From Fischerella sp. JS2 (GTDB lineage: Bacteria > Cyanobacteriota > Cyanobacteriia > Cyanobacteriales > Nostocaceae), in the NCBI RefSeq assembly GCF_032393985.1, contig NZ_CP135918.1, positions 3,472,001 to 3,536,000 on the forward strand: a stretch of DNA of 64,000 nt, read 5' to 3'. Each line of letters begins with the position of its first letter. Position 1 is the stretch's first letter. The notes beneath the pieces were generated by a model, which saw only the letters and a program-made list of their open reading frames with translations, searched no databases and was not told the DNA's origin. Positions 6,246 to 31,353 of this stretch are shown here, in pieces. Position numbers and translations under genes: made by a program.

Positions 6246-6545
6246 CTTAATCTAGTGGTAAAATTTTCCTCCCCACGACAGTGATTAACGGGGAGCGGGT
6301 AAATTATATAGGTGAGATTGGTAGTTTTGCTTAGCTGAGGGATTGATGCGATCGCTAATTCGACATATAAAAATCAGTTTAAGAACACCTCAGCCAAAAT
6401 TTTCATAAAATTTAGGTCTTTTTGTGCCATTTCCTGCATAATCCTGTGTTTGCAATTCCCATACATAAGTAGCAACATCCCTCAGATTTAGAGGGTCAGG
6501 TTGACTTGTTAATAGTTGACCGAAGCAAAAACCAGAGGACACTTC
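6246..6545. other. Intergenic region upstream of the signalling cassette
   Basis: Positions 6269-6295 hold an inverted repeat (CTCCCC/GGGGAG with a 15-base loop) without a T run on the plus strand. The rest is AT-rich and probably contains the promoter of the following four-gene set. An AGAGGA ribosome site lies near 6532. Confidence 0.45.
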
Positions 6546-8078
6546 ATGAAAAAACGTGAAGATATCATTGAAAAGTTCTCAACGTTTCTCAGTTTTGGCA
6601 ACTCCAGTAGTGACGTAAATCCTATTTGGCAAACAGATCCAGACTTAGAACGTTGTATAAAAAGTTTAGTGGAGTCAGAACCAGATGCAAATGAAGAGTT
6701 TTGGGCGCAGTACTTTCTGAAAGTTCTCAGAGAGGAATCTCAGTCTCAGAGTCAAGAAGATGGGGAGAAATATTTCACCCCACCACATAGTTCTTTTATC
6801 GCTGGGAGACATATGTCTGCATATTTGCAAGAAGCTTGCTTGTGGGCTTCTCAAAAAGCTTATCAAAGATTTAAATATCTCCGGCATAAATATCCATTAG
6901 AAGAATATTTTCAAATCGCTAATGCAGCTGCTAATCCCCCAGCTAAACTCCTGAAAAATTTTAATGTTGAATATCCACTGACTAATATCGAAGGATATGC
7001 TAAAACAGCAATCATAAGGTTGATTAGCAATACAATTTATCGGCATGATATAGAAGCAAAGAGAGGAAAATTTTCTGACTATGGTTTACTTAAAGATTTA
7101 AACGCTAAAGAATTACGCGAAGCATTGTTCTTTAAAGGGATAAATCACAAAAAACTTAATTCTTACTACTTAATTTGGCAATGTCTAGATAAAATCTATC
7201 AACCAACACGCTGTCAAGGAGGTCGTAGTTTGGAACCTCCCAATCAACAGCATCTCCAAGAAATTGCCCATTGTTATAACCAGCAAATAAACAAACTAGA
7301 TTTTCCTACAGCGCCAGTTTCCAGCGAGAAAGTTCAATCTATGTTATCAACCTGTGTGCGGGCAGCTCGTGATTATCGTACCAAACGTTTTTTATCCTTA
7401 GAAGAATATGACAATATTTTTGACCCTACACTAACACCTTGGGATAATCTCATACAAGAAGAAGCATGGGAACAAGTTCACTCAATTATCTCAAATTTAT
7501 TTGCCTCTATACCAGAGACTGGTCAAATAATGTTAAAACTTTGGCAAGGGCTGGGCTTAACTCAAACTGAAATAGCAACAATTTTAAAAGCTAGTTATCC
7601 AGGCTTACAAAAACAATATCAAGTAGCTCGTCAATTATCCAGATATCTAAAAAATATATTAAAAGATTTAGCTATAGAATTGAATAAAATTCATCCAGAT
7701 GTTTGTCTTCACAATGAAAAAGATATTGAAAATATTAAAGATGCTATGAATGAATGTATTCAATCTCATTGCCAAAAGCTATTATATTCAACATTAGATA
7801 GAATTGAAAAACAATCTTTAGAACAAGAGAAATTATTAACTATTTCTCGGGAAATTCATCTTTTAGGACAACAAAACTATCAGCAGATTGCTATTCTTTT
7901 ATCGGAAGCATCAAGTGTATTGTCACAGGTAAAACAAAACCTAATTATATCTTTCAAAGATGAATTGGCAAAGAGCATGAATTTAGAACACAATTCTCTA
8001 GAAGTAGTGAATCATAAAATAGCTGACTTCATTGAAGAATGGTTGAAAAGCAAATTATATTTTGCCAAACAGGGATGA
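6546..8078 (+). CDS. Sigma-70 region 4-like regulator
   Basis: The 510-residue protein is mostly helical. Residues about 308-375 (SIISNLFASIPETG ... GLGLTQTEIATIL) resemble sigma-70 region 4, a helix-turn-helix that contacts the -35 element. I see no clear region 2, so either it is an atypical sigma factor or it uses the HTH for another purpose. The N-terminal half and the last 130 residues match nothing I recognise. The ATG at 6546 has a good AGAGGA site, better than the TTG at 6516. It heads a tight set: DUF1822 begins 6 bases later, then the CHAT-CHASE2 gene. It may control that set. Confidence 0.65.
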   Translation: MKKREDIIEKFSTFLSFGNSSSDVNPIWQTDPDLERCIKSLVESEPDANEEFWAQYFLKVLREESQSQSQEDGEKYFTPPHSSFIAGRHMSAYLQEACLWASQKAYQRFKYLRHKYPLEEYFQIANAAANPPAKLLKNFNVEYPLTNIEGYAKTAIIRLISNTIYRHDIEAKRGKFSDYGLLKDLNAKELREALFFKGINHKKLNSYYLIWQCLDKIYQPTRCQGGRSLEPPNQQHLQEIAHCYNQQINKLDFPTAPVSSEKVQSMLSTCVRAARDYRTKRFLSLEEYDNIFDPTLTPWDNLIQEEAWEQVHSIISNLFASIPETGQIMLKLWQGLGLTQTEIATILKASYPGLQKQYQVARQLSRYLKNILKDLAIELNKIHPDVCLHNEKDIENIKDAMNECIQSHCQKLLYSTLDRIEKQSLEQEKLLTISREIHLLGQQNYQQIAILLSEASSVLSQVKQNLIISFKDELAKSMNLEHNSLEVVNHKIADFIEEWLKSKLYFAKQG

Positions 8079-8084
8079 AATTAT

Positions 8085-9323
8085 ATGAAATTAGAAATGA
8101 ATGATTTAATGGTGCTTTACCCAGATAAATTATGGTTGGAGTTATCAGCCCAAGAACAACAAACTGCATGGCAAATATCTGCTCAAAATTATTACTCTAA
8201 CCCTGCTGCCCGTTGGAATGCCTATCTTAATTGTTTATGTTTGAATGCTTTTTTAGATTGGTTGAAAGAAGATCCTGATTTAGGTGAAACTCCAAGTGTT
8301 TGGCCCAATTATCATCAGTTACCTAGTTTTTGGGAATTTGTCAATGGTACTTGTTTAACTTTAGGTGATCTGCGACTAGTGCTAATTCCTAGCGATAAAA
8401 GTAATCTGACAGAGTTTCGCATACCCCAAGAATGGGTTGATATTCCTAACTGGGTGGCTAATTATTATCTAGCTGTGCAGATCAACTTAGAAGAAAACTG
8501 GATAGGAGTGTGGGGATACACAACCCACCAACAAATTCGAGCAAAAGCTAAATATGACCTGATGGATCGAACTTACTTGTTGGATGAAGAAGATTTAATT
8601 GCAGATATAAATGTGATGTGGGTGGCACAGGAAGTATGTTCTGTGCAAAAACCAGAGCTAAAAATTTTGCCAAAGTTGTCAAGTATACAAATAGAGAAAC
8701 TACTCAAGCAACTGGATGACTGGACTCCTGATTTACCCAAGAATGTGAGTGAGCAAGAATGGATGGCATTACTAGCACTAGATGAAGGAAGACAGGATTT
8801 ATACCAAAAAAGGCTTGCAAAACATAAAGGTAATTTAGTTGCATACAATCAACCCTTGGTAAATAACTTGAGTAAATGGTTTCAAAATGTCTTTGAAGCA
8901 GGTTGGCACTCTTTTGACAGCCTCGTTAGTTCACAACAAAATACTTTAGCTGTGCAGTTCCGCAATGATGCAACCTTGAATGAGGTTCGTGTTAAGGGAG
9001 CTAAGTTGATTGATTTAGGGATGCAACTCAGGAATACTGCTGTGGTGCTGCTGATTGGTTTGACATCAGAAATAGATGAGAAAGTCAGTATCCGTGTCCA
9101 ATTACATCCAGCTAATGAAGAAGTATATCTACCACCTGATCTGAAATTACTTTTACTTTCGGGGTCGGGAAACATTCTTCAGGAAGTACAATCTAGAAGT
9201 CACGACAATTTCATTCAACTTAAAAAATTTAAATCTCCCCCAGGCAAAAGTTTTAGTTTACAAGTGACCTTAGGTGATATCAGTATTAAAGAAGATTTTA
9301 TGCTTGAGAAGCTTGTTGGCTAA
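8085..9323 (+). CDS. DUF1822 family protein
   Basis: The 412-residue protein begins MNDLMVLYPDKLWLELS and contains the DUF1822 hallmark AARWNAYLNCLCLNAFLDWL followed by a W-rich mid-region (WVAQEVC). This family appears largely restricted to cyanobacteria and has no assigned function. There is no signal peptide or membrane segment, so it is probably cytosolic. The C-terminal third (from about 290) looks beta-rich. It sits 6 bases after the sigma-like gene and 5 bases before the CHAT-CHASE2 gene, so it is almost certainly translated from one message with them and probably works as a partner or adaptor. Confidence 0.8.
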   Translation: MKLEMNDLMVLYPDKLWLELSAQEQQTAWQISAQNYYSNPAARWNAYLNCLCLNAFLDWLKEDPDLGETPSVWPNYHQLPSFWEFVNGTCLTLGDLRLVLIPSDKSNLTEFRIPQEWVDIPNWVANYYLAVQINLEENWIGVWGYTTHQQIRAKAKYDLMDRTYLLDEEDLIADINVMWVAQEVCSVQKPELKILPKLSSIQIEKLLKQLDDWTPDLPKNVSEQEWMALLALDEGRQDLYQKRLAKHKGNLVAYNQPLVNNLSKWFQNVFEAGWHSFDSLVSSQQNTLAVQFRNDATLNEVRVKGAKLIDLGMQLRNTAVVLLIGLTSEIDEKVSIRVQLHPANEEVYLPPDLKLLLLSGSGNILQEVQSRSHDNFIQLKKFKSPPGKSFSLQVTLGDISIKEDFMLEKLVG

Positions 9324-9328
9324 CAGCC

Positions 9329-11671
9329 ATGAGTAAACTAGTTGTATTAAACCTGGGAAAGGGTAATTTAAAGCAAGGCTTTCCCTCTGTTACTGCTGCA
9401 CTCTGGGAAGAAGGCAATCCCATCGTTATGCAATTTACGGGTAGCCTACCAGCTGCACCAGAACTTTGGTCACTCTACAAACGTTGGCAGCTGCTTTATC
9501 AGTTACTCTATGAAGCTCTTTACCCTAGCTTGGATTGGCGTAGTTACACAGATGATTTAGAGGATACAGAGATTGAGATAGACGAAGATGATGTCACGAA
9601 TGTTTCCTCTGTTGATTTTAGTAATTTATGTGAGGATCTACACAAACAAATTAATTCCTGGCTGAAATCTGAACAATTTCGTCACATTGACCAAAAATTA
9701 CGCACAAAATTAAATCCCGATGATGAAATCCGGGTAATTCTGGCAACAGAAGATCACCAAGTTAGGCGTTTGCCTTGGCATCTGTGGGATTTTTTTGAAG
9801 ACTACCAAAAAGCAGTGGCATGTTCAAGTGTTTTAGAAGTTGAGCAAGTTAAGCCGTTACGTAAAAAACCTGGGCGAAAAATCAGGATTCTCGCTGTTCT
9901 GGGTAATAGTCAAGGAATTAATGTCCAGCAAGATCGGGCGATTCTAGAACAGTTACCAGGCGCGGAAATTATTTTTTTGGTGGAACCACAACGGCAAGAG
10001 TTGGATCGCTGGCTTTGGGATCGACGAGGCTGGGATATGCTATTTTTTGCAGGTCATGGTTCCACTGGTGCTGAAGGAGAAAGTGGTCGGCTTCATATCA
10101 ATCAAACAGATACCTTGACGATCGCTCAATTAAAAAATGCTCTCCAAGCAGCGATCGCACGGGGTCTAAATTTAGTAATTTTTAACTCCTGCGAAGGTTT
10201 GGAATTAGCGCGAGAATTAGGTTCTCTGCATATTCCCCAAATGATTGTTATGCGCGAACCAGTCCCCGATTTTGTCGCCCAAGAATTTTTAAAGCACTTT
10301 CTCGAAGCTTTTGCTCATGGGGAATCTTTTTATTTGGCGCTACGAGAAGCACAGAATAAATTACAAGGTTTGGAAAATGAATTTCCCTGTGCCAGCTGGT
10401 TGCCGGTGATTTGCCAGAATCCAACAGCAGAACCGTTAGTTTGGCCACAACAACACGAGAGTGATCGCCACCCGATTTTGCCTCCCCGACGCATTCTCCC
10501 CATCATCTTGAAAACTAGCGTGGTAATCACTGCCCTTACTGTGGGCATTAGATCACTAGGTATGTTGCAGTCGTGGGAACTGGCAGCTTTTGATTTATTG
10601 ATGCGATCGCGCCCTCCTGAAAACCTTGATCCTCGTATACTGGTAGTAAAAGTCACAGAAGCTGATGTGAGCGCCCAACCCGCCACAGAAAGAGCAGGAG
10701 CATCACTATCAGACAAAGCCTTGGCTGAAGTTGTGAAAAAACTGGAACAGTTCAACCCCAGGGTTATTGGTTTGGATATCTATCGTGAGAACCCAACCAA
10801 ACCAGAATATGCAGATTTAGCTAAGACAATGCAAACCAGCGATCGCTTTATTGCTATATGTAGAGCCGGTGAAGACAAAACTAATCCTGGTGTTCCACCA
10901 CCCCCAGAAGTTTCTACCCAAATCCAACGCCAAGGTTTTAGTGATGTCGTTACTGATCCTGATAACGTCATCCGTCGCCAAATCTTGGCTATGGCTCCTG
11001 CATCTCCCTGTGCGACTGATAAATCTTTGAGTTTTCGCCTGGCGAGTCGTTACTTAAAAAATCGCGGTATTCAACCTCAACTGACTCCTGAAAATAATTG
11101 GCAGTTCGGCAAGGTGGTATTTAAAAATATAGAGCCAAACAGTGGTGGTTACAGTGGTATAGATAATCTCGGTTATCAAGTGTTGTTAAATTGGCGTGCT
11201 GCCGATCCAGTTGCTCAACAAGTTACTCTCAAACAAGTTCTCAAAAATCAACTTACTGCCGAATTAGTACGCGATCGCATAGTTCTAATTGGTACAACTG
11301 CCGAAAGTTTTCACGATTACTGGTCTACTCCCTACAGTCATCAAATGCCAGGAGTAGTTGTACAAGCACATATGGTAAGTCAAATCCTTAGTGCTGTCCT
11401 GGATGAGCGACCGTTATTATGGGTTTTACCAAAGTGGTGTGAAATCTTGTGGATCTGGATTTGGTGTGTAGTTGGTGGTGTACTAGCTTGGCAGGTGCGA
11501 TCGCGCTTACGCCTGCTGATTGCTTTAACGGGTGCGATCAGCATTTTATATATATCTTGCTTGTACTTATTAATACAAGGTGGTTGGATACCGTTGCTTC
11601 CCTCAACATTAGTCTTACTAGCTAGTGGAGCAAGCGTAGCAACCATAAATTCATCTCAAACCGAAGAGTAA
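9329..11671 (+). CDS. CHAT-CHASE2 fusion protein
   Basis: The 780-residue protein joins two modules. Residues about 180-370 form a CHAT domain (caspase-like fold) with the expected dyad: His243 in FAGHGS and Cys288 in FNSCEG. From about 390 a membrane segment leads into a CHASE2 sensor domain (FDLLMRSRPPENLDPRILVVKV) that should lie outside the membrane, closed by two or three membrane helices at about 690-775. No kinase or cyclase follows CHASE2, so the presumed output is the N-terminal CHAT protease. This suggests a receptor that activates a cytosolic caspase-like peptidase on an external cue (inference). It is third in the set with the sigma-like and DUF1822 genes. Confidence 0.82.
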   Translation: MSKLVVLNLGKGNLKQGFPSVTAALWEEGNPIVMQFTGSLPAAPELWSLYKRWQLLYQLLYEALYPSLDWRSYTDDLEDTEIEIDEDDVTNVSSVDFSNLCEDLHKQINSWLKSEQFRHIDQKLRTKLNPDDEIRVILATEDHQVRRLPWHLWDFFEDYQKAVACSSVLEVEQVKPLRKKPGRKIRILAVLGNSQGINVQQDRAILEQLPGAEIIFLVEPQRQELDRWLWDRRGWDMLFFAGHGSTGAEGESGRLHINQTDTLTIAQLKNALQAAIARGLNLVIFNSCEGLELARELGSLHIPQMIVMREPVPDFVAQEFLKHFLEAFAHGESFYLALREAQNKLQGLENEFPCASWLPVICQNPTAEPLVWPQQHESDRHPILPPRRILPIILKTSVVITALTVGIRSLGMLQSWELAAFDLLMRSRPPENLDPRILVVKVTEADVSAQPATERAGASLSDKALAEVVKKLEQFNPRVIGLDIYRENPTKPEYADLAKTMQTSDRFIAICRAGEDKTNPGVPPPPEVSTQIQRQGFSDVVTDPDNVIRRQILAMAPASPCATDKSLSFRLASRYLKNRGIQPQLTPENNWQFGKVVFKNIEPNSGGYSGIDNLGYQVLLNWRAADPVAQQVTLKQVLKNQLTAELVRDRIVLIGTTAESFHDYWSTPYSHQMPGVVVQAHMVSQILSAVLDERPLLWVLPKWCEILWIWIWCVVGGVLAWQVRSRLRLLIALTGAISILYISCLYLLIQGGWIPLLPSTLVLLASGASVATINSSQTEE

Positions 11672-12086
11672 AAATATATTTATTTGTTAAGTAAAATCAA
11701 AAGACTATTGTAACCTAGTACACCATTTCATTAATTCGTAGTGGATCAAATTTAGCGAGACTCTTCTACCTGGTACGCTAACTCCGCGTGTCTTTGCGTT
11801 AAAAAAGTACAAAAATATGCAACTTTATACCGTGCATAAAAAATTTTTATGTTTATACATTACTCCAAGTGCATAATCTGACTTTAATTCCACCAATAAA
11901 GAATAATAGAAAGATTAACTTAACAGACTTGACTGATGTCTCTTAAATAATCAAACCGAAAAAATTGCATTCTCTAGGAGAAAATCCAAAAATATGTAAC
12001 TAATCAAGAAAACAATAGTTTTTTGATTTGATTACTCTATGCTCAACCTTATTGACTATTGATTAAACATACAAAAACAATGACAA
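11672..12086. other. Intergenic region with repeat
   Basis: No gene is seen. Positions 11757-11805 contain a TACGCTAACTCCGCGTGTCTTTGCG-type repeat related to those near 5540 and 48400. The rest is AT-rich. The gap is long enough for the DUF928 gene to have its own promoter. Confidence 0.5.
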
Positions 12087-12851
12087 ATGAGCAAATCAAA
12101 ATGTGCATTGACTATAGCTTGTATGTTACTTGGCTGGATGAGCTATTTCGTACCAGTAACAGCACAACCTAATCAACCAGCTAATAACAATTCTCAACCT
12201 ATACAAATTCACTTTCAGGACAAAGAACCAGATGGATCAAGCCGAGGCAGACCTATTAAAAGGGGAGGAACTGGAAGCCGTGGTGACTGTCCATCTGTAG
12301 ATGTTTTAACGACTGCATTGATACCAGAAAAAAATGTAGGTTTGACTGTTGATGAGTCTCCTAGCTTTTGGGTTTTTGTTCCTTATAAATCAACAGAGAC
12401 ACCGATTGGCGAATTTGTATTACAAGATGAAACAAATAATGACGTTTATCGAACTAATTTTACTCTACCTAATACACCAGGTGTTGTGAGCTTGAAGCTA
12501 CCATCTACAGTAGCCTTAACAGTTAACCAAGACTATCAATGGTACTTCAAACTTTATTGTTCTAAGCAACAACTATCTAACCCGATATTTGTGCGTGGAT
12601 GGGTGCAAAGAATACCAATCAAACCTGAATTAGCAAGTCTTTTGAAATCAGCTACCACACCACGGCAGCGCATCGCTATTTATGTTGAAAATGGCATTTG
12701 GTATTCAGCTTTGTCTGAGTTAGCTAAACTCCGCCTCGCTGAAACAAAAAATCCTATTTTTGCTAATGATTGGGCTAATTTATTGCAGGATATTGGTTTA
12801 GCTGATTTTGCATCAAAGCCTATTGTGGGAGAAGTAACACAGGTGAAATAA
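12087..12851 (+). CDS. DUF928 secreted protein (copy 1)
   Basis: The 254-residue protein has an N-terminal signal peptide (hydrophobic core about residues 7-24, TAQ cut region) and a DUF928 domain: GTGSRGDCPS, then SPSFWVFVPY, GVVSLKLP and YQWYFKLYC. The final helical part (RQRIAIYVENGIWYSALSELAKLR) is typical of the family. It should act in the periplasm or outside the cell; function unknown. It follows the CHAT-CHASE2 gene on the same strand, and a second DUF928 gene at 30616 sits beside a second CHASE2 protein, so the association is probably functional. Confidence 0.82.
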   Translation: MSKSKCALTIACMLLGWMSYFVPVTAQPNQPANNNSQPIQIHFQDKEPDGSSRGRPIKRGGTGSRGDCPSVDVLTTALIPEKNVGLTVDESPSFWVFVPYKSTETPIGEFVLQDETNNDVYRTNFTLPNTPGVVSLKLPSTVALTVNQDYQWYFKLYCSKQQLSNPIFVRGWVQRIPIKPELASLLKSATTPRQRIAIYVENGIWYSALSELAKLRLAETKNPIFANDWANLLQDIGLADFASKPIVGEVTQVK

Positions 12852-22275: not shown

Positions 22276-22366
22276 TAGTAGATTATCGTCAGTGTTAAGT
22301 CACTTCAGCAACAAGCAAACAGATTGACTAAACCTTCAGGTTCTCAATCTTTTGGGTGGACTACAG

Positions 22367-24517
22367 ATGAAATACAAGTTTGTTAAACAGCATAGTGAAG
22401 AAGACTGTGGAGCTGCTTGTTTAGCTACCATTTCTAGGCATTATGGACGTAATTTTACTCTTAATCACATCCGTGAAATGGTAGGTACTGGACAGTTTGG
22501 AACGACTTTATTAGGGTTAAAACGGGGTGCAGAATCACTTGGATTTAATGCTCGTCCAGTTAAAACTTCACCAGAACTTTTAAACCGAATGAAAGAAGCA
22601 CCTCTGCCAGCAATTATTCACTGGCAGGGAAATCATTGGGTTGTTTTATATGGCAAGCAAGGTAACAAATGTGTCATTGCTGATCCGGCTGTAGGTATTC
22701 GTTATCTGTCTAAAAAGGATGTAGCAGATAATTGGACAGATTGGTTAATGCTGTTGTTACAGCCAGATCAAACTCGCTTTTTCTCCCAAGAGGATGATAA
22801 AGTGAGCGGCTTTTGGCGTTTCTTCCGGCGTGTTTGGGCTTTTCGTGGCATACTGGTCCAAGCGTTACCTTTAAACTTAATTTTAGGACTGCTATCTTTA
22901 GCCTCGCCATTTTTGCTCCAAATTCTTACTGATGATGTTTTGGTAAGAGGAGATACAAGGCTGCTCACAACTGTGGCTATCGCTGTGGTTGTGATGCATT
23001 TTGTTTCTACTAGTCTTTCGTTTGTACAGTCTAATTTAATTGCTCATTTTGCTCAGCGTCTGCAATTAGGTTTGGTGTTGGAATTTGGGCGACAAATTCT
23101 GCGCTTACCTCTTTCTTACTACGAAGCTCGTCGCAGTGGAGAAATTGTCAGCCGTTTACGGGATATAAATCAGGTTAATCAGTTAGTTGCTCAAGTTATT
23201 GTTGGTTTACCTAGCCAATTTTTTATTGCCCTTATTTCTTTTGGCTTCATGCTGTTTTATAGCTGGAAGTTAACGACGGTAGCTATATTTATTGCTATAG
23301 CAATGAGCATTTCTACAGTTATATTTCAGCCTACTTTACGAAATAAAACCCGTGAACTATTAGTTCAAGAGGCAGAAAATCAAGGTGTTTTAGTAGAAAC
23401 TTTTAAAGGCGCACTTACCCTAAAAACTACTACTGCATCACCACAATTTTGGGATGAATTTCAAAGTCGATTTAGTCGCTTGACAACCATAACTTTAAAT
23501 ACAATTCAAATTGCGATCGTCAATAGTACATTCTCAGGATTTGTTGCTGCTGTTGGCGGTGTTATTTTGTTGTGGTTTGGTGGAAATTTAGTAATTCAAC
23601 CCGAGGAAAATCTGAGTATTGGGCAATTATTAGCTTTTAACGCAATGAATGCTAATTTCCTGGGTTTAATTGGTAGTGTAATTGGTTTTGTAGATGAATA
23701 TACTCGTGCAAAAACTGCTGTTCAACGGCTGACGGAAGTTATAGATGCCACCCCAGAAGATGATAAAGATGGTAAAAAGCAGTTTGCCAAGATACCTGGA
23801 GATGCTGACATTATTTGTACTAATGTCAACTTTCACTATGCAGGTAGGATGGATTTGTTAGAAGATTTTTCATTAACAATTCCAGGTGGTAAAGTAATTG
23901 CTTTTATTGGTAAGTCTGGTTGTGGTAAAAGTACTCTTGCTAAATTAATTGCAGGCTTATACCCATTACAATCTGGTAATATCCGCATAGGATTATATAA
24001 CTTAGATGATCTGGCTCTTGATTGTCTACGTCATCAAATAGTTTTAGTTCCCCAAGATGCTCACTTTTGGAGTCGTTCAATTATTGAAAATTTCCGTTTA
24101 GGAACACCTCATGTTACTTTTGAGCAAATTGTTAGATGTTGTGAAATAGCAGAAGCCGATGAATTTATCAGTAAATTACCTGATAAATATCAAACTGTTT
24201 TAGGCGAATTTGGAGCAAATATTTCTGGTGGTCAACGTCAAAGATTAGCTATAGCACGTGCTATTGTTAACGATCCACCAATCTTAATTTTGGACGAGTC
24301 TACAGCTGGATTAGATCCAGTTAGTGAGGCACAAGTATTAGATAAATTACTTCAACATCGTCGAGGAAAAACAACAATTTTGATTAGCCATCGTCCGCGA
24401 GTTATTAGTCGTGCTGATTGGATTGTGTTTTTAGAACAAGGTAGGTTAAAACTAAAAGGATCTGTGGAAGAATTAAGCTCGATTCCTGGTGATCATTTAG
24501 ATTTTTTAACTCCTTGA
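22367..24517 (+). CDS. C39 peptidase ABC exporter (PCAT)
   Basis: The 716-residue protein is a peptidase-containing ABC transporter. The N-terminal C39 domain has the triad Cys14 (EEDCGAACL), His90 (NHWVVLYG) and Asp106 (ADPAVG) and cuts leaders after GG. A six-helix membrane domain covers about 150-440. The ATPase has Walker A GKSGCGKST (515-523), signature SGGQ (620-623) and Walker B ILILDES. It should process and export the four upstream peptides with the HlyD protein downstream. The ATG at 22367 places the cysteine at the usual distance from the start; a TTG at 22352 is the alternative. Confidence 0.93.
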   Translation: MKYKFVKQHSEEDCGAACLATISRHYGRNFTLNHIREMVGTGQFGTTLLGLKRGAESLGFNARPVKTSPELLNRMKEAPLPAIIHWQGNHWVVLYGKQGNKCVIADPAVGIRYLSKKDVADNWTDWLMLLLQPDQTRFFSQEDDKVSGFWRFFRRVWAFRGILVQALPLNLILGLLSLASPFLLQILTDDVLVRGDTRLLTTVAIAVVVMHFVSTSLSFVQSNLIAHFAQRLQLGLVLEFGRQILRLPLSYYEARRSGEIVSRLRDINQVNQLVAQVIVGLPSQFFIALISFGFMLFYSWKLTTVAIFIAIAMSISTVIFQPTLRNKTRELLVQEAENQGVLVETFKGALTLKTTTASPQFWDEFQSRFSRLTTITLNTIQIAIVNSTFSGFVAAVGGVILLWFGGNLVIQPEENLSIGQLLAFNAMNANFLGLIGSVIGFVDEYTRAKTAVQRLTEVIDATPEDDKDGKKQFAKIPGDADIICTNVNFHYAGRMDLLEDFSLTIPGGKVIAFIGKSGCGKSTLAKLIAGLYPLQSGNIRIGLYNLDDLALDCLRHQIVLVPQDAHFWSRSIIENFRLGTPHVTFEQIVRCCEIAEADEFISKLPDKYQTVLGEFGANISGGQRQRLAIARAIVNDPPILILDESTAGLDPVSEAQVLDKLLQHRRGKTTILISHRPRVISRADWIVFLEQGRLKLKGSVEELSSIPGDHLDFLTP

Positions 24518-24645
24518 ATTAGTTGTTGGTTAGTAGTTAGTAGATAGTAGATAGTGGTTAATCAATAAAAAATGCGTACTAACTACTGTACAGGTGTCTA
24601 CGTCCCTACTAACCACTAACCACTAACCACTAACTATTAACAATC
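24518..24645. repeat. TTAGTAG / CTAACCA tandem repeats
   Basis: Tandem TTAGTTAGTAG-like units (24520-24560) and ACTAACCACTAACC units (about 24604-24640) with opposite sense flank a GTGTCTACGTCC motif. They separate the exporter from its HlyD partner but leave them on the same strand. Confidence 0.7.
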
Positions 24646-26055
24646 ATGCTTTATACTCATAATCAAAAATTTCTCCCTTCAGTTAATATCGATGAGTTTT
24701 TACCACCAATTAGTCGTTGGACAACCTTAGCTGGTATATTTTTGGTTACAAATGTCGCCACAGCGATCGCTCTCGCTTCGTACATTAAATACAATGTTAC
24801 TGTCAAGACTTCTGCAACTGTACGTCCTACAGGAGATGTTCGGATCGTGCAACCAGAAATAGAAGGAACTGTTAAAGGCATTTTTGTTAAAGAAAATCAG
24901 ATAGTTAAACAAGGAGATGTAATTGCTAAGCTTGATGATATGGAACTACATATCAAAAATAGTCAATTACAAAATAGTATTGAAGAAGGTAATTTACAAT
25001 TAGCTCAAATTAAAGCCCAAATCCAAGCTTTAGATCTTCAAATAGATGCTGAAAAACAAGTCATTGAAACAACAGTTATTTCTGCTCAAGCAGACTTGAC
25101 ACGTAATCAAAGAGATTATCAACAAGAGCAAGTCAAAACTCAAAGCGAATTACTATCAGCAGAAGCAAATTTGCAAAAAGCTGAAGCAAGTTTAAAAAAA
25201 GCTAAAGCAGATTTAAATTTTGCTAAACAGGATCGCGATCGCTACAAAGAATTAGCACAATATGGAGCAATTGGTAAACGGGATTATGAGCAGAGAAAAT
25301 TAGCTGTTGAACAAGCACAATTAGAAGTAGAGGCAGAAAAAAGAGCTATAGATATAGCTAAAGCTAGCCTGCAAACAGCAAAAGCTGCTCTTAATCCTAG
25401 TGCAGCAACGGTGGAAATTGCTCAGGAACGCATAGCCCAAGAAAAGGCAAAAGGTCAATCTAGTATCGCTGCTTTAATTAGAGAGAAAAATACTTTAATT
25501 CAGCGACAAATTGAACTTAGAAATCAAATCAAACAATACCAACAGGAATTACAAAAAAATATCATTCAAATGCAAAGTAGTGTCATTCGTGCTACTAGCG
25601 ATGGTGTGATTCTCAAGCTCAATTTACGTAATCCAGGTCAGGTGGTACGCCCCTCAGAACCTGTTGTAGAGATTGTCCCTCAGCACGCGCCTTTAGTCGT
25701 GAAAGCCATCATTCCTGCGGCTGAGATTAAAAAGGTGGAAATTGGTCAAAAAGTACAGTTGCGAGTTGATGCTTGTCCATATCCTGATTATGGTACTCTC
25801 CAAGGTGTTGTTACTAGTGTTTCTCCAGACACAATCGCACCTGTCAATAATTCAGATGTGAGTGCAGTAAGTAGTCCAAGTCCTGCTGCTAGATCTTTTG
25901 AAGCAATGATCAAACCCGAAAGTTATAGTTTTGGAAATCATGAACATACCTGTAATTTACAACCAGGTATGAATGCTTCTGCTGATATTATTTCAAAACA
26001 AGAAACAGCTCTGAAATTTTTACTTAGGAAAGCCAGATTAATCACTGATTTATAA
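24646..26055 (+). CDS. HlyD family secretion adaptor
   Basis: The 469-residue protein has one N-terminal membrane helix (about 26-48). A lipoyl/biotinyl-like half motif follows (VRPTGDVRIVQPEIEG, then FVKENQIVKQGDVIAKLDD), then a long coiled coil (about 100-310) and a second lipoyl half with SDGVILKLNLRNPGQVV. The C-terminal beta-barrel contains VEIGQKVQLRVDACPYPDYG. It is the periplasmic adaptor that joins a type I ABC exporter to an outer-membrane channel. No TolC-like gene is in the window, so a shared TolC elsewhere is likely. Confidence 0.92.
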   Translation: MLYTHNQKFLPSVNIDEFLPPISRWTTLAGIFLVTNVATAIALASYIKYNVTVKTSATVRPTGDVRIVQPEIEGTVKGIFVKENQIVKQGDVIAKLDDMELHIKNSQLQNSIEEGNLQLAQIKAQIQALDLQIDAEKQVIETTVISAQADLTRNQRDYQQEQVKTQSELLSAEANLQKAEASLKKAKADLNFAKQDRDRYKELAQYGAIGKRDYEQRKLAVEQAQLEVEAEKRAIDIAKASLQTAKAALNPSAATVEIAQERIAQEKAKGQSSIAALIREKNTLIQRQIELRNQIKQYQQELQKNIIQMQSSVIRATSDGVILKLNLRNPGQVVRPSEPVVEIVPQHAPLVVKAIIPAAEIKKVEIGQKVQLRVDACPYPDYGTLQGVVTSVSPDTIAPVNNSDVSAVSSPSPAARSFEAMIKPESYSFGNHEHTCNLQPGMNASADIISKQETALKFLLRKARLITDL

Positions 26056-27463: not shown

Positions 27464-28141
27464 ATGAAACAAGCGTTAACAAGACAAGCATTGCTAAAAA
27501 TTTTAGTCATAGATGATCATGAATCAGTATTGGGTGGAACCATAGAAGTACTACGAAAAAAATACATGGATGCTGAATTTTTAACAGCAGTTACAGCTCA
27601 AGAAGCGCTTGATCAAGTAGCAAAGATGCAACCTGATTTAGTAGTTATGGATCTTTCTCTACCAGAAAGTCCTGGCAAAATGGCACGACCAGATACAGGT
27701 GTCAAACTACTTAGAAACTTAATGAAAAACCATATAAATTTGAATATCGTAGTTCAAAGCGCTCATGTAAGAACATTAGTACGAATCAGACCTGATATTG
27801 ATATTCATAAAGGAGGTTTTACAGTCGCCGATAAAAGTCTTTCTAGCCAGGAAATGTTGACTAGAGTAGATTGGGCATTACAGGGATTAACTCATACAAA
27901 AGATATTAAAGGTGTTCATGCTGGCTTAGAAGTCAAACCAGAATGGTTAAGGGTGCTAACTCTCGCATTTGAAGAAGGATTAACAGATAAGGCGATCGCA
28001 GAGCGCATGTGTGTTGGCGAACGTATGGTACGTCATTATTGGAGCAAGTTACAAGATGCTTTAGATGTTTATCCTGAAGAGGGAAAAAATATGCGAATTC
28101 AAACGGAAATGCGAGCCAGAGAAGAAGGATTAATTGATTAG
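27464..28141 (+). CDS. NarL/LuxR-type response regulator
   Basis: The 225-residue protein has a receiver domain (ILVIDDHES acidic pocket; phospho-acceptor Asp in LVVMDLSLPES) and a C-terminal helix-turn-helix (LTLAFEEGLTDKAIAERMCVGERMVRHYWSKLQ) of the LuxR kind. The receiver carries an insertion after the phospho site (PGKMARPDTGVKL). It should bind DNA when phosphorylated by the CHASE2 histidine kinase encoded directly after it. It could regulate the peptide-export operon upstream (inference). Confidence 0.88.
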   Translation: MKQALTRQALLKILVIDDHESVLGGTIEVLRKKYMDAEFLTAVTAQEALDQVAKMQPDLVVMDLSLPESPGKMARPDTGVKLLRNLMKNHINLNIVVQSAHVRTLVRIRPDIDIHKGGFTVADKSLSSQEMLTRVDWALQGLTHTKDIKGVHAGLEVKPEWLRVLTLAFEEGLTDKAIAERMCVGERMVRHYWSKLQDALDVYPEEGKNMRIQTEMRAREEGLID

Positions 28142-28231
28142 TATTTGGCTGTTGGTAGTTCGTTGTTGGTTAGAAAAAATACAAAACAACTAACATCAAA
28201 CAATAAACAACAAACAACAAATAATAAACCA

Positions 28232-30115
28232 ATGCAGGCTGAACTGTGGAGAATTATTAAAGAGGAAATAGCCATTTGGCGTGTAGGTGCATTACCAGGG
28301 ATGGCAGTTATAGTGCTGGTAATAATTACTCGTTTAAGTGGTTATATGCAGTCTCTTGAATGGTTAGCCTTTGATAATTTTTTGCGTATACGTCCTGCTG
28401 AACCAATTGACGAACGTGTTGTCATTATCGGAATAAATGAAGAAGATATCCGTAGTGTTGGAACCTACCCCATACCAGATAGAGAAATTGCAGCACTATT
28501 GAGAAAGCTCAATTCTTTAGCACCCAGAGTTATTGGTCTTGATATTATTAGAGATTTACCTGTTGAACCTGGACATACAGAACTGGTTAGTGCATTTAAG
28601 GATATCAAAAAATTAGTTGCGATTGAAAAAGTATTACCTGAAAAAGTTGCTCCTCCACCAAAATTACCTCCAGAACAAGTTTGTTTTTCAGATCAAATCA
28701 TCGATACTGATGGTAAATTACGACGCAGTTTGTTGGCAACACCTACAGAACAAGAATATAAATTTTCTTTATCTGTTTGCTTGGCAAAAACTTATTTAGC
28801 TAAGCAAGGTTATAGCCTAGAAAACGGTATTCGTGACCCCCAAGCGCTTAGGTTTGGGAATCTTGAACTACCCCGATTTTTTCCCAATTCTGGAGGATAT
28901 GTCAGAACTGATGCTGGTGGAGTGCAGATGCTGCTCAATTTTCGCAGTGGTCAAAAAAGATTTAGAATTTTATCTCTTAATGATATTAAAAATGGAAAAT
29001 ATCAGCCGCAGTGGATACGCGATCGCATTGTAATTATTGGTATTACTGCGCCTAGTGTGAAAGACTTCATCACTACTTCTGCTGTAGTATCTATACAACC
29101 TGCACAGGGACGTATTTATGGAGTGGAAGTTCAAGCACATGCTAGTTCTGCAATAGTTAGTGCAGTGCTAGACTCCAGATCACTGTTGTATAGTTGGGCA
29201 GACTGCTGGGAATATGCATGGATAATCGGCTGGGGTGTTTTAGGAATTGCTTTCGCTAGACTCACCAAATCTCCGTGGCGAAATCTGGTTGCTGTTGTGA
29301 TAGCCAGTACTATTTTAATAGCTGTCAGTTATCTACTTTTGTTGTGTTGGGGTTTATGGGTTCCACTAGTACCAGCAATCCTTGTTCTAAATTTAAATGG
29401 GATTGCCATGACAGCTTTATACCAGTATGACCAAGCATTGCGTTCTAGAATAGAAGCTCGTCAAGCCCTAATTGAACGTACTTTTGAAACAATTCATAAT
29501 GGGCCATTGCAAACCCTGGCTAAAGCATTGAAGACAATTCGCGAACAAAAATTATCATCAGAAGAATTAATACCCGGACTTGAAAAAGAATTAGAAAAAT
29601 TAAATTATGAGCTAAGAGGCATATATGAATTTTTACAAAGAGAACCTCTAACTCAAGATAGAAGTTTATATCTCGGAAATGGTCTACTGCTAAATTTACA
29701 AGACCCTATTCATACAGTTCTCTATCAAGTTTATGACCATACATTACAGCGAGAATTTTCTTGCTTTAGTACACTCAGGGTTAAGATAGTAACATTTGAT
29801 CCAATTGATGATCACTTAAGTATTGAACAAAAACGTGGACTTTGTCGCTTTTTAGAAGAAGCTTTGTGTAACGTAGGCAAGCACGCCACAGGTGTAACTC
29901 GCTTAGTGGTTAGTTGTACCCAAAATGAAGGATGGTACACTCTAAAAATTATTGATGATGGCTTGGGTAGCATCTCTGCTAAAGAAGGTCGAGGAACACA
30001 ACAGTTCCGAAATCTAGCTCGACAATTAAGAGGAAAATTTACGCGATCGCCTCTTTCCCCTCGAGGTACTCTTTGTGAAGTATCTTGGCCTGTGGCAAAG
30101 TTTGGCTTTTGGTAA
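28232..30115 (+). CDS. CHASE2 sensor histidine kinase
   Basis: The 627-residue protein has an N-terminal membrane helix, then a CHASE2 domain (about 40-300: FDNFLRIRPAEPIDERVVIIGI, VIGLDIIRDLPV), three membrane helices (about 320-400) and a NarL-type kinase. The phospho-acceptor is His in FETIHNGPLQTL (HisKA_3-like), and the ATPase shows EEALCNVGKHATG (N box) and IDDGLG (G box). It should sense an external cue and phosphorylate the adjacent LuxR-type regulator. I chose the ATG at 28232. The frame extends to a TTG at 28145, but those 29 residues come from an AACAAACAAC repeat. Confidence 0.88.
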   Translation: MQAELWRIIKEEIAIWRVGALPGMAVIVLVIITRLSGYMQSLEWLAFDNFLRIRPAEPIDERVVIIGINEEDIRSVGTYPIPDREIAALLRKLNSLAPRVIGLDIIRDLPVEPGHTELVSAFKDIKKLVAIEKVLPEKVAPPPKLPPEQVCFSDQIIDTDGKLRRSLLATPTEQEYKFSLSVCLAKTYLAKQGYSLENGIRDPQALRFGNLELPRFFPNSGGYVRTDAGGVQMLLNFRSGQKRFRILSLNDIKNGKYQPQWIRDRIVIIGITAPSVKDFITTSAVVSIQPAQGRIYGVEVQAHASSAIVSAVLDSRSLLYSWADCWEYAWIIGWGVLGIAFARLTKSPWRNLVAVVIASTILIAVSYLLLLCWGLWVPLVPAILVLNLNGIAMTALYQYDQALRSRIEARQALIERTFETIHNGPLQTLAKALKTIREQKLSSEELIPGLEKELEKLNYELRGIYEFLQREPLTQDRSLYLGNGLLLNLQDPIHTVLYQVYDHTLQREFSCFSTLRVKIVTFDPIDDHLSIEQKRGLCRFLEEALCNVGKHATGVTRLVVSCTQNEGWYTLKIIDDGLGSISAKEGRGTQQFRNLARQLRGKFTRSPLSPRGTLCEVSWPVAKFGFW

Positions 30116-30615
30116 ATGTTTTTTTTAATAAAAATATTTTGAGTGATAATTCCAAACAAGCGCTATGAAAGCTACTTCTGACCAATCTAAAACCTCAAAT
30201 CCAAAGTTAGACGATTCGTGTGAAAACCTGAAAAAGTGGCTTTCTGTATGTGAGTTTCAGAATATATAATATACAAGTATTTTTGTCTATTACTAATATT
30301 CTGATACTTGCCAAGTAATATAATAAATATTTTAAAAAAATGTGAGATATAGTAAATATAAGCCAGCATTATGTAGTTTTCAGTAATGCGAATGACTAAA
30401 ATATGAAATGAATTTAGTCATTTACTAGTAATACAATTAAGATAGATATGTAGCTTGGCACACAAAACGTATTTCTCCTGAGCAATGGTAATCCTCAATG
30501 AGCTATGGCAAGATGGTTAATTGCAATTAACTATTAATAATTGCTAATCTCCAAGCAACTACATATCTACCAATTACTATGAATTTTTTGAGTGCAATGC
30601 CAAGAGGGAAAGATA
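30116..30615. other. AT-rich intergenic region
   Basis: No gene is seen in 500 bases of strongly AT-rich sequence. A GAGGGAAAG ribosome site lies at about 30604-30612. This gap probably carries the promoter of the DUF928 gene. Confidence 0.5.
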
Positions 30616-31353
30616 ATGACTCACAAACAGTGGCTCTTGCACAAAATTTTTAATCATAAGATTTTAATAATTTGTGCTTTGACCATCCCTTTCTTGTTTA
30701 CTCAAATAACTTTAGCTGCGTATAAACCTCCCCGCAATCAAAAACCACCAAGTGGTTATACAGAATCATCGGGAGTTAGGGGAAAATGCAAAGCTATAGA
30801 TGCTGATTCTGTAACCCTGCTTGCTCCTTCTACACATATTGGACAAACCACTTCCAGCCATCCCACCTTTGCTTGGTTTGTACCTCATCACCAAAGAGTA
30901 CCGCTAGAGTTCTCTATTTATGAGTTAGGCAGTAATGAGCAACTAAAACTAACTTATAAATCTCGATTGCAGAGTTCGCCAGGGGTTATGAAACTATCTT
31001 TACCAGAGAATTTACCTGGTTTAGCCTTGGGTAAAAAATATCTATGGCAAGTAGAAATTTTGTGTGACTTTAACTATCCTTCACGCAATTTACTAGCCAC
31101 AGCAGATATTGCAATTGTACCCATGCCAGCCAATTTACAAGAAGCACTGCATCATAAGGGCGATCGCACCCAAAGAGCTAGTCTCTATGCTGAAGCAGGT
31201 ATGTGGTACGATGCCTTGGGTGAAGCCTTAGCTGACAGTGGCGATGGCGAATTGGGGAAACTGGCAGCAAATTTATTAAAAGACCTAGCAAGCTTAGAAA
31301 AGTCACCAGAAATTAGAGATTTATCTCAAGTTGCTTTAGGACAAAATCAATAG
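30616..31353 (+). CDS. DUF928 secreted protein (copy 2)
   Basis: The 245-residue protein has a signal peptide (about 10-32: ILIICALTIPFLFTQITLAA) and a DUF928 domain: GVRGKCKAIDADSVTLLAP, SHPTFAWFVPH, GVMKLSLPENLPGL, YLWQVEILCDF and RASLYAEAGMWYDALGEAL. It matches the layout of the copy at 12087. It should be periplasmic or extracellular. The ATG at 30616 has a GAGGGAAAG site; a GTG at 30592 lies upstream. It follows the CHASE2 kinase and is convergent with a CHAT-TPR gene. Confidence 0.82.
   Translation: MTHKQWLLHKIFNHKILIICALTIPFLFTQITLAAYKPPRNQKPPSGYTESSGVRGKCKAIDADSVTLLAPSTHIGQTTSSHPTFAWFVPHHQRVPLEFSIYELGSNEQLKLTYKSRLQSSPGVMKLSLPENLPGLALGKKYLWQVEILCDFNYPSRNLLATADIAIVPMPANLQEALHHKGDRTQRASLYAEAGMWYDALGEALADSGDGELGKLAANLLKDLASLEKSPEIRDLSQVALGQNQ

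Follow-up and report, generated by a model that had tools for sequence, protein, structure and literature searches.

In a window of 64,000 nucleotides (the whole stretch of DNA that was analysed) from the cyanobacterium Fischerella sp. JS2 (contig NZ_CP135918.1, positions 3,472,001 to 3,536,000 of the forward strand; the host genome is a single contig of 7.02 Mb), we studied a four-gene cassette that encodes, in this order on the + strand, a sigma-like protein, a DUF1822 protein, a protein joining a caspase-like CHAT domain to a CHASE2 sensor, and a DUF928 protein. On balance, and with confidence a little above even, we read this cassette as a membrane-gated protease-to-sigma-factor switch. 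The initial annotation, made from the sequence alone, had seen in the CHAT-CHASE2 protein a transmembrane receptor whose output is proteolysis, possibly of the sigma-like or the DUF1822 partner. Overall, this interpretation is partly supported by the present analysis, which also draws on a published description of EACC2-caspase proteins and on a shared promoter-like motif, neither of them mentioned in the initial annotation.

The conserved cassette and its sensor

The gaps between the four genes are 6, 5 and 415 bases. Their coordinates, the two short gaps and the common strand had been reported by the initial annotation and were confirmed by the open reading frames (ORFs) of the window and by Pfam, where the window proteins gave E-values of 1e-91 (DUF1822), 6.7e-69 (CHASE2), 1e-15 (CHAT) and 5.4e-61 (DUF928). 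The conservation of the neighbourhood, which had been named beforehand as a check, was evaluated in loci from the best 80 of the 533 relatives of one scan plus the own genome; because only the best 80 were taken, this set leans to close relatives. Sixty-three of the 85 CHAT ORFs had enough flanking sequence to be judged, and 56 of these carry CHASE2 in the same ORF. Around these 56 CHAT-CHASE2 genes we found a sigma gene in 43 cases, DUF1822 in 46, DUF928 in 44 and all three partners in 34. Thus, the conserved neighbourhood is present, and these counts indicate that the four-gene arrangement is not due to chance. The cassette of Fischerella thermalis PCC 7521 shows 95% identity over the CHAT region. 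A second sample comprised 59 genomes drawn across the phylum; the two sets share one genome and are nearly, not fully, separate, since the CHAT and DUF928 proteins of L096 recur in L048. The in-house profiles were iterated on the same loci in which they were then counted.

The CHAT-CHASE2 protein is composed of an EACC2-like domain (residues ~1-167), the CHAT domain (~185-365) and CHASE2 (~410-700). Its structure model (predicted local distance difference test score, pLDDT, 87) places one transmembrane helix before CHASE2 (386-409) and three after it (702-722, 726-749 and 757-779), and therefore CHAT should be cytoplasmic. The putative catalytic residues His243 and Cys288, pointed out by the initial annotation, do not vary across the 86 rows of the alignment, in which the window domain is counted twice because it also served as the seed. 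In a Foldseek search with the model the best match in the PDB was Csx29 (9.4e-9), and Craspase, separase and SAVED-CHAT were also found; DdvA (8rw5 and 8rot, titled transmembrane anti-sigma factor) matched at 1.7e-5, the aligned part not being printed in the output. The fold matches, the invariant dyad and the helices at 386-409 and 702-779 support the prediction that the protein is a receptor that spans the membrane, senses through CHASE2 and uses the CHAT protease as its output. The CHASE2 profile gave nothing useful against solved structures, DdvA was not matched at the sequence level, and a profile of the whole CHAT-CHASE2 family gave no CHAT match. The first domain, with strands and helices at residues 3-167 of the model, is kept across 16 aligned members with differing C-termini, and its identification as EACC2 follows the published description because no library returned an EACC2 profile. 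The C-terminus is variable: a 1241-residue paralogue (L012) is devoid of CHASE2, and nSTAND1-WD40 occupies this position in L040 and L078. When read by eye, the long C-terminus of the L012 protein looks like two periplasmic-binding-type receptor repeats.

DUF928 was considered as a partner of CHAT, and this was rejected because DUF928 tracks CHASE2 in both locus sets. In the phylum sample, DUF928 is located downstream of 12 of the 14 EACC2-CHAT genes with CHASE2, compared with 0 of the 23 without a clear CHASE2 (p 4.9e-8). This test included 37 of the 42 EACC2-CHAT ORFs outside the own genome (five with less than 2 kb downstream or shorter than 300 residues were dropped) and counted the weak CHASE2 matches in L130, L131 and L135 as being without CHASE2; when these three were moved, the ratio became 12 of 17 versus 0 of 20 (p 3.3e-6). 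The 80-locus set gave 46 of 58 with CHASE2 versus 0 of 5 without (p 8.8e-4), with L042 and L066, whose CHASE2 part is a separate ORF, treated as CHASE2. Among 70 DUF928 ORFs, 45 are at most 1 kb from a CHASE2 gene (31 of these being non-CHAT), and 25 are not near CHASE2. The outputs of ten scanned CHASE2 partners of DUF928 were a cyclase (five), a histidine kinase (three), a Ser/Thr kinase (one) and GGDEF-EAL (one), and in the own genome three of the four DUF928 genes adjoin one of the six CHASE2 genes. DUF928 belongs with the CHASE2 sensor, and the hydrophobic stretch that begins at residue 6 of the window protein is consistent with a signal peptide.

The window contains a second CHASE2-DUF928 pair with a different output (27464-31353). 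There, a gene that by eye is response-regulator-like is accompanied by a CHASE2 protein (28145-30115), the C-terminal half of which appears sensor-kinase-like by the same kind of reading, and by DUF928 (30592-31353).

Table 1. Features of the cassette (positions in the window)
Feature	Position	Strand	Basis	Remarks
Promoter-like motif TGCATAAT-N15-CCCAT	6435..6462	+	Weight matrix	Upstream of the sigma operon; kept in close orthologues
Sigma-70-family (ECF-like) protein, 510 aa	6546..8078	+	ORF, NCBIfam, profile comparison	C-terminal extension
DUF1822 protein, 412 aa	8085..9323	+	Pfam, structure model, neighbour counts	Candidate anti-sigma factor and candidate CHAT substrate
EACC2-like + CHAT + CHASE2 protein	9329..11671	+	Pfam, alignment, model, fold search	
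Second motif copy TGCATAAT-N15-CCAAT	11870..11897	+	Exact genome search, weight matrix	Upstream of DUF928
DUF928 protein, 254 aa	12087..12851	+	Pfam, gene linkage	Predicted periplasmic CHASE2 partner

DUF1822 and its probable sigma-factor partner

The steadiest partner of DUF1822 is the sigma gene and not the protease, which is a new observation of this analysis. EACC2-CHAT (E<=1e-20) was detected in 16 of the 59 genomes and DUF1822 in all 16 of them; in total, DUF1822 occurs in 38 of the 59 genomes, in 36 of them above the Pfam cut-off. When 56 DUF1822 ORFs in regions from these genomes were inspected, 45 adjoined a sigma-family gene (12 of a long type, 24 of a short type and nine of a third type, whose homology emerged only when profiles were compared, at 97.8% and E 6.8e-13), two had an XRE regulator instead and nine had neither. 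A sigma neighbour was still present in 24 of the 27 DUF1822 ORFs that lack a CHAT gene within 1.2 kb. Three of the 56 ORFs come from the own genome, and the distant family described below, with its 20 loci, contributes a single one (L154); two weak ones (L155) were kept, and several weak Pfam matches were left out (e.g., G045:C13, G058:C1:3018616 and G033:C19, the last of which, in locus L222, gave no match to the sigma protein of the distant family). The regulators replacing the sigma gene upstream of DUF1822 in L106 (6597-8002) and L113 (9182-11037) are of the XRE-type helix-turn-helix kind (PF01381). The median length of DUF1822 is 409.5 residues beside long sigma genes and 328.5 residues beside short ones.

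The sigma-like ORF extends over 6516/6546-8078, and the ATG at 6546 is kept in 8 of 8 aligned rows (the window and seven orthologues). It had no Pfam match above the cut-off, and its NCBIfam match to sigma70-ECF (extracytoplasmic function, TIGR02937; E 2.2e-7) was below the cut-off (30.7 vs 42.9 bits), which is exceeded by the related sigma proteins of L136 and L142. The initial annotation had called this protein sigma-region-4-like, and this was borne out when a profile of 45 relatives was compared with solved sigma factors: region 4 was matched (SigF 2.3e-6, FliA 3.6e-5), and region 2 was matched weakly (0.032), at a distance of ~150 residues (profile positions 96-158 and 312-368). Judged from these comparisons, the window protein appears to contain regions 2 and 4 of the sigma-70 family, region 4 being clear and region 2 weak. 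The median lengths of the short and long sigma types are 222 and 506.5 residues, respectively. A special tie to CASP-sigma was rejected, as L136 gave only a weak sub-cut-off match (2.8e-4) and the window sigma none.

The pairing was also observed in a distant family of 1.8- to 2.2-Mb genomes (f15), which belongs to the same phylum and a different class and probably represents gut Vampirovibrionia. One DUF1822 match was present in 20 of 20 genomes (loci L154 and L203-L221), in 18 of them above the cut-off of the unmodified Pfam model. In this family the DUF1822 domain comes first in a protein that is 943-1294 residues long and has one hydrophobic helix (18 of the 18 genomes in which the gene is uncut by a contig end; the helix count comes from a simple hydropathy window and not from a topology predictor), and a TonB C-terminal domain ends 16 of these 18 proteins. 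A sigma gene of 182-198 residues is located 10-66 bp downstream in 18 of 18 testable genomes, and the one tested by NCBIfam, that of L154, passes the ECF cut-off. In the profile comparison, the N-terminus of these proteins maps to residues 18-175 of the window DUF1822 (94.7%, E 6e-8). The usual layout of an anti-sigma factor is a cytoplasmic domain followed by a membrane helix and an outer tail, encoded beside an ECF sigma gene, and by analogy the arrangement in this family can be described as an anti-sigma layout. The single-copy, mostly TonB-tailed DUF1822-domain protein and its neighbouring sigma factor may also constitute an outer-membrane-linked sigma pathway.

The structure model of the window DUF1822 (pLDDT 86) consists of an N-terminal alpha/beta domain (~16-170), a helical linker with low-confidence stretches at 250-256, 285-287 and 291-298, and a C-terminal beta-sandwich (~303-406). 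This model led us to reject DUF1822 as a TPR protein. Kinship with Csx30 was rejected as well, as no match was found by sequence or among the 50 of 896 fold matches listed; these listed matches contained no known anti-sigma fold and, judged from their titles, seem to fall on the C-terminal beta-sandwich. Partial distance correlations were calculated for 74 triplets (two of 76 were dropped as duplicates) and amounted to 0.82 for sigma-DUF1822, 0.48 for DUF1822-CHAT and -0.12 for sigma-CHAT, and to 0.58, 0.82 and -0.14, respectively, for the 52 long-sigma triplets. These values fit DUF1822 as a middleman between sigma and CHAT. We consider it highly probable that DUF1822 and the sigma factor are partners, and likely, with lesser confidence, that DUF1822 inhibits sigma. 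Since DUF928 tracks CHASE2 and DUF1822 tracks sigma, the cassette joins two modules which also occur separately, CHASE2-DUF928 for sensing and sigma-DUF1822 for output.

Other copies are found in the own genome. A paralogous DUF1822/CHAT-CHASE2/DUF928 operon without an adjacent sigma gene is located at ~2.0 Mb (L011, 2787-10208), and the next gene upstream seems to code for a TPR protein that starts with a signal-peptide-like stretch and ends in a CHAT-like part; a similar-looking TPR gene adjoins DUF1822 in L099, L100 and L101. The third copy, at ~5.44 Mb (L012, 3400-9222), consists of a short sigma gene, DUF1822 and the EACC2-CHAT gene for the 1241-residue protein. Elsewhere in the window, positions 22352-26055 hold a C39-peptidase ABC exporter (Pfam) and then, by eye, an HlyD-like secretion protein.

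A promoter-like motif before the sigma operon and DUF928

The aligned upstream regions have in common a one-directional motif composed of TGCATAAT, 15 bases and CC(C/A)AT (CCMAT). Only two exact copies exist in the own genome, one before the sigma operon and the other before DUF928, and the backward-read control gave 0. In the genomes of 13 relatives we counted 39 exact copies versus 7 controls. Fifteen of the exact copies belong to the cassette, where they precede sigma, DUF928 or, in the case of L024, DUF1822. In a genome of the same genus, the motif sites have contig coordinates equal to those in F. thermalis PCC 7521. The motif accompanies DUF928 even when this gene is inverted (L021, L022 and L029). 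It was not found before DUF928 in three close relatives (L026, L027 and L045) in which DUF928 is within 70 bp of CHAT and could therefore share the operon promoter.

With a weight matrix built from 21 sites in 13 loci, a score of at least 12 bits was obtained upstream of 15 of the 63 long-sigma genes, 12 of the 131 DUF928 genes and none of the 36 short-sigma genes; the 21 sites included 10 of the 15 sigma and nine of the 12 DUF928 scorers. The held-out genes at this threshold were sigma in L023, L025, L030, L047 and L053 and DUF928 in L023, L024 and L083. Among the control genes, 1 of 121 DUF1822 (L024) and 1 of 125 CHAT genes (L083) scored at least 12 bits, and both are the first cassette gene found in their locus. 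The simplest reading would be that the motif is read by the cassette's own sigma factor. Since DUF928 has its own promoter-like site at 11870-11897, it is probably transcribed separately from the sigma operon and controlled in the same way.

The proposed switch, its relatives and alternatives

The cassette belongs to an already predicted kind, since Kaur et al. 2021 (PMC8195603), in the passages covered, describe EACC2-caspase proteins together with ECF sigma and DUF1822. In that description a constant N-terminal alpha+beta and caspase module is followed by a highly variable C-terminus, which may be CHASE2; most neighbourhoods without TRADD-N hold ECF sigma and DUF1822 genes, DUF1822 is called a TPR protein, and auto-proteolysis and a transcriptional step are proposed. 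The N-terminal module, the variable C-terminus and both neighbours are all found here. The same passages mention no DUF928, promoter or caspase-less DUF1822, and their TPR label differs from our model. In the parts of the literature covered by our searches, no proposal of an anti-sigma role for DUF1822 was found, and a search on CHASE2 with a CHAT domain in cyanobacteria yielded no publication. The CHAT-CHASE2 protein was rejected as the first such fusion because a caspase-CHASE2 protein in Trichodesmium, as well as a caspase-ANF-receptor protein in Nostoc, was listed in 2010 (PMC2853523); the domain pairing is alike, and in the passages covered the operon, sigma (the word occurs 0 times) and a mechanism are absent. 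The covered part of PMC5587647 contains one mention of DUF928 next to CHASE2, in Nostoc. The constancy of the DUF1822-sigma pair, the anti-sigma layout in the distant family, the DUF928-CHASE2 linkage and the motif present only twice are new here.

According to the sections covered of PMC10028731, the ECF-like CASP-sigma is inhibited by Csx30, which in Craspase is cleaved by Csx29. The likeness of that system (Cas7-11, the TPR-CHAT protein Csx29, Csx30 and CASP-sigma) to the present cassette is that a CHAT protease, an inhibitor (here a candidate) and an ECF-like sigma factor are encoded together, that Csx29 is the best PDB match of our model and that the His-Cys dyad is present. However, the trigger there is RNA acting via Cas7-11 and here would be a membrane sensor, and DUF1822 has no detectable relation to Csx30. 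Another comparison is offered by DdvA, which we take to be a CHASE2 protein from Myxococcus with an ECF sigma factor as its target. It resembles the CHAT-CHASE2 model by its fold match and, as far as the structure titles tell, is itself the anti-sigma factor, whereas the present sensor bears a protease, and inhibition would fall to a second protein.

In the switch that we propose, CHASE2 together with exported DUF928 would sense an envelope signal, as suggested by the gene linkage of this module. The signal would cross the membrane to the cytoplasmic CHAT domain, which is N-terminal on the same polypeptide; this architecture is observed, and the activation is what we infer from it. CHAT would then cut DUF1822, most likely in the flexible interdomain linker. 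Before the cut, the N-terminal domain of DUF1822, observed in a pair with sigma, would keep sigma inactive, and the freed sigma factor would transcribe from the TGCATAAT-N15-CC(C/A)AT sites observed before its own operon and DUF928. Because sigma would read both, positive feedback could arise and supply more of the sensor partner. We rate the cleavage of DUF1822 by CHAT as having an even or slightly better chance. The initial annotation had proposed either the sigma-like protein or DUF1822 as the substrate. DUF1822, acting on sigma, is now favoured, since it stands beside sigma genes even without CHAT and the correlations run from sigma over DUF1822 to CHAT; sigma itself is favoured less. More tentatively, with a chance just short of even, DUF1822 could be a new ancient anti-sigma domain family of photosynthetic cyanobacteria and the distant family (there membrane-bound and mostly TonB-tailed), which in filamentous cyanobacteria has turned into the substrate of a CHASE2/DUF928-gated CHAT protease with a dedicated promoter code.

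Several results weigh against the proposed switch. The NCBIfam score of the window sigma stays under the cut-off. For DUF1822, sequence and profile searches revealed no likeness to Csx30 or to any known anti-sigma factor, and its model had no PDB match at E<=0.001 in the fold search. In addition, DUF1822 is missing from the 1.2 kb around 15 of the 45 EACC2-CHAT ORFs, and five of the nine regulator-less DUF1822 genes show the L011 arrangement (CHAT-CHASE2, no adjacent sigma gene); in three of these five loci a short sigma gene lies 3-6 kb away. Four of the 18 proteins of the distant family were missed by the in-house DUF1822 profile, although the Pfam model matches them. The correlation chain equals the gene order and could therefore be produced by linkage alone. 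The motif is restricted to a part of the long-sigma clade, and in L024 (1335-1689) it is kept before DUF1822 with no sigma gene found beside. With one mismatch allowed, the own genome holds 22 sites versus 6 controls, and 24 of the 39 exact copies in relatives are found elsewhere than in the cassette, in part upstream of unrelated genes, so that another regulator could read the motif. Extra copies occur on the cassette contig in one Nostoc and one Desmonostoc genome (L248 at 8236 and 3859, L249 at 5930 and 12551); by eye, the genes behind them look TPR-repeat-like and nitroreductase-like, and these copies argue against a closed circuit in all relatives.

DUF1822 might instead be a helper or adaptor of sigma (an activator or scaffold), with CHAT cutting the C-terminal extension of sigma or itself and thereby switching the complex. 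The sigma-DUF1822 pairing is compatible with either sign, long sigma proteins do have a C-terminal extension, and auto-proteolysis of the caspase protein was proposed by Kaur et al. (PMC8195603, in the passages covered). However, we consider this explanation unlikely, as the one-helix, TonB-ended DUF1822 version beside sigma is arranged as membrane anti-sigma factors classically are, the short sigma proteins are too small for an extension and yet occur in the same type of cassette, and sigma and CHAT show no distance correlation after DUF1822 is accounted for. A conflict or immunity system, in which an invader is sensed, CHAT attacks several host proteins and sigma merely tunes expression, would agree with the grouping of EACC2-caspases with counter-invader systems in the covered part of Kaur et al. 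(PMC8195603) and with the nSTAND1-WD40 C-termini of L040 and L078. It appears even less probable, because a defence search (PADLOC) gave a lone match with an E of 0.036, DUF928 as a CHASE2 companion is common to CHASE2 kinases and cyclases, and exact copies of the motif in the own genome are restricted to the cassette. A merely kept neighbourhood, in which CHAT has no proteolytic activity and an unrelated regulator recognises the motif, would accord with the protease activity being only predicted and with motif copies before non-cassette genes in relatives, and is very improbable given that His and Cys are invariant in 86 of 86 rows, that the motif follows inverted DUF928 and that 0 of 36 short-sigma genes have it at 12 bits or more.

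To our knowledge, little is known about the substrates of cyanobacterial caspase-fold proteins, and we know of CHAT-controlled sigma switching from one CRISPR system only. Judged from titles and abstracts, the caspase-fold proteins of cyanobacteria have often been treated as cell-death enzymes. The cassette offers such a protein a specific candidate substrate (DUF1822), a candidate output (two promoters) and a candidate sensor partner (DUF928), and functions are thereby proposed for two DUF families, DUF1822 and DUF928. If the proposed switch is true, CHAT-controlled sigma switching would be a more general design.

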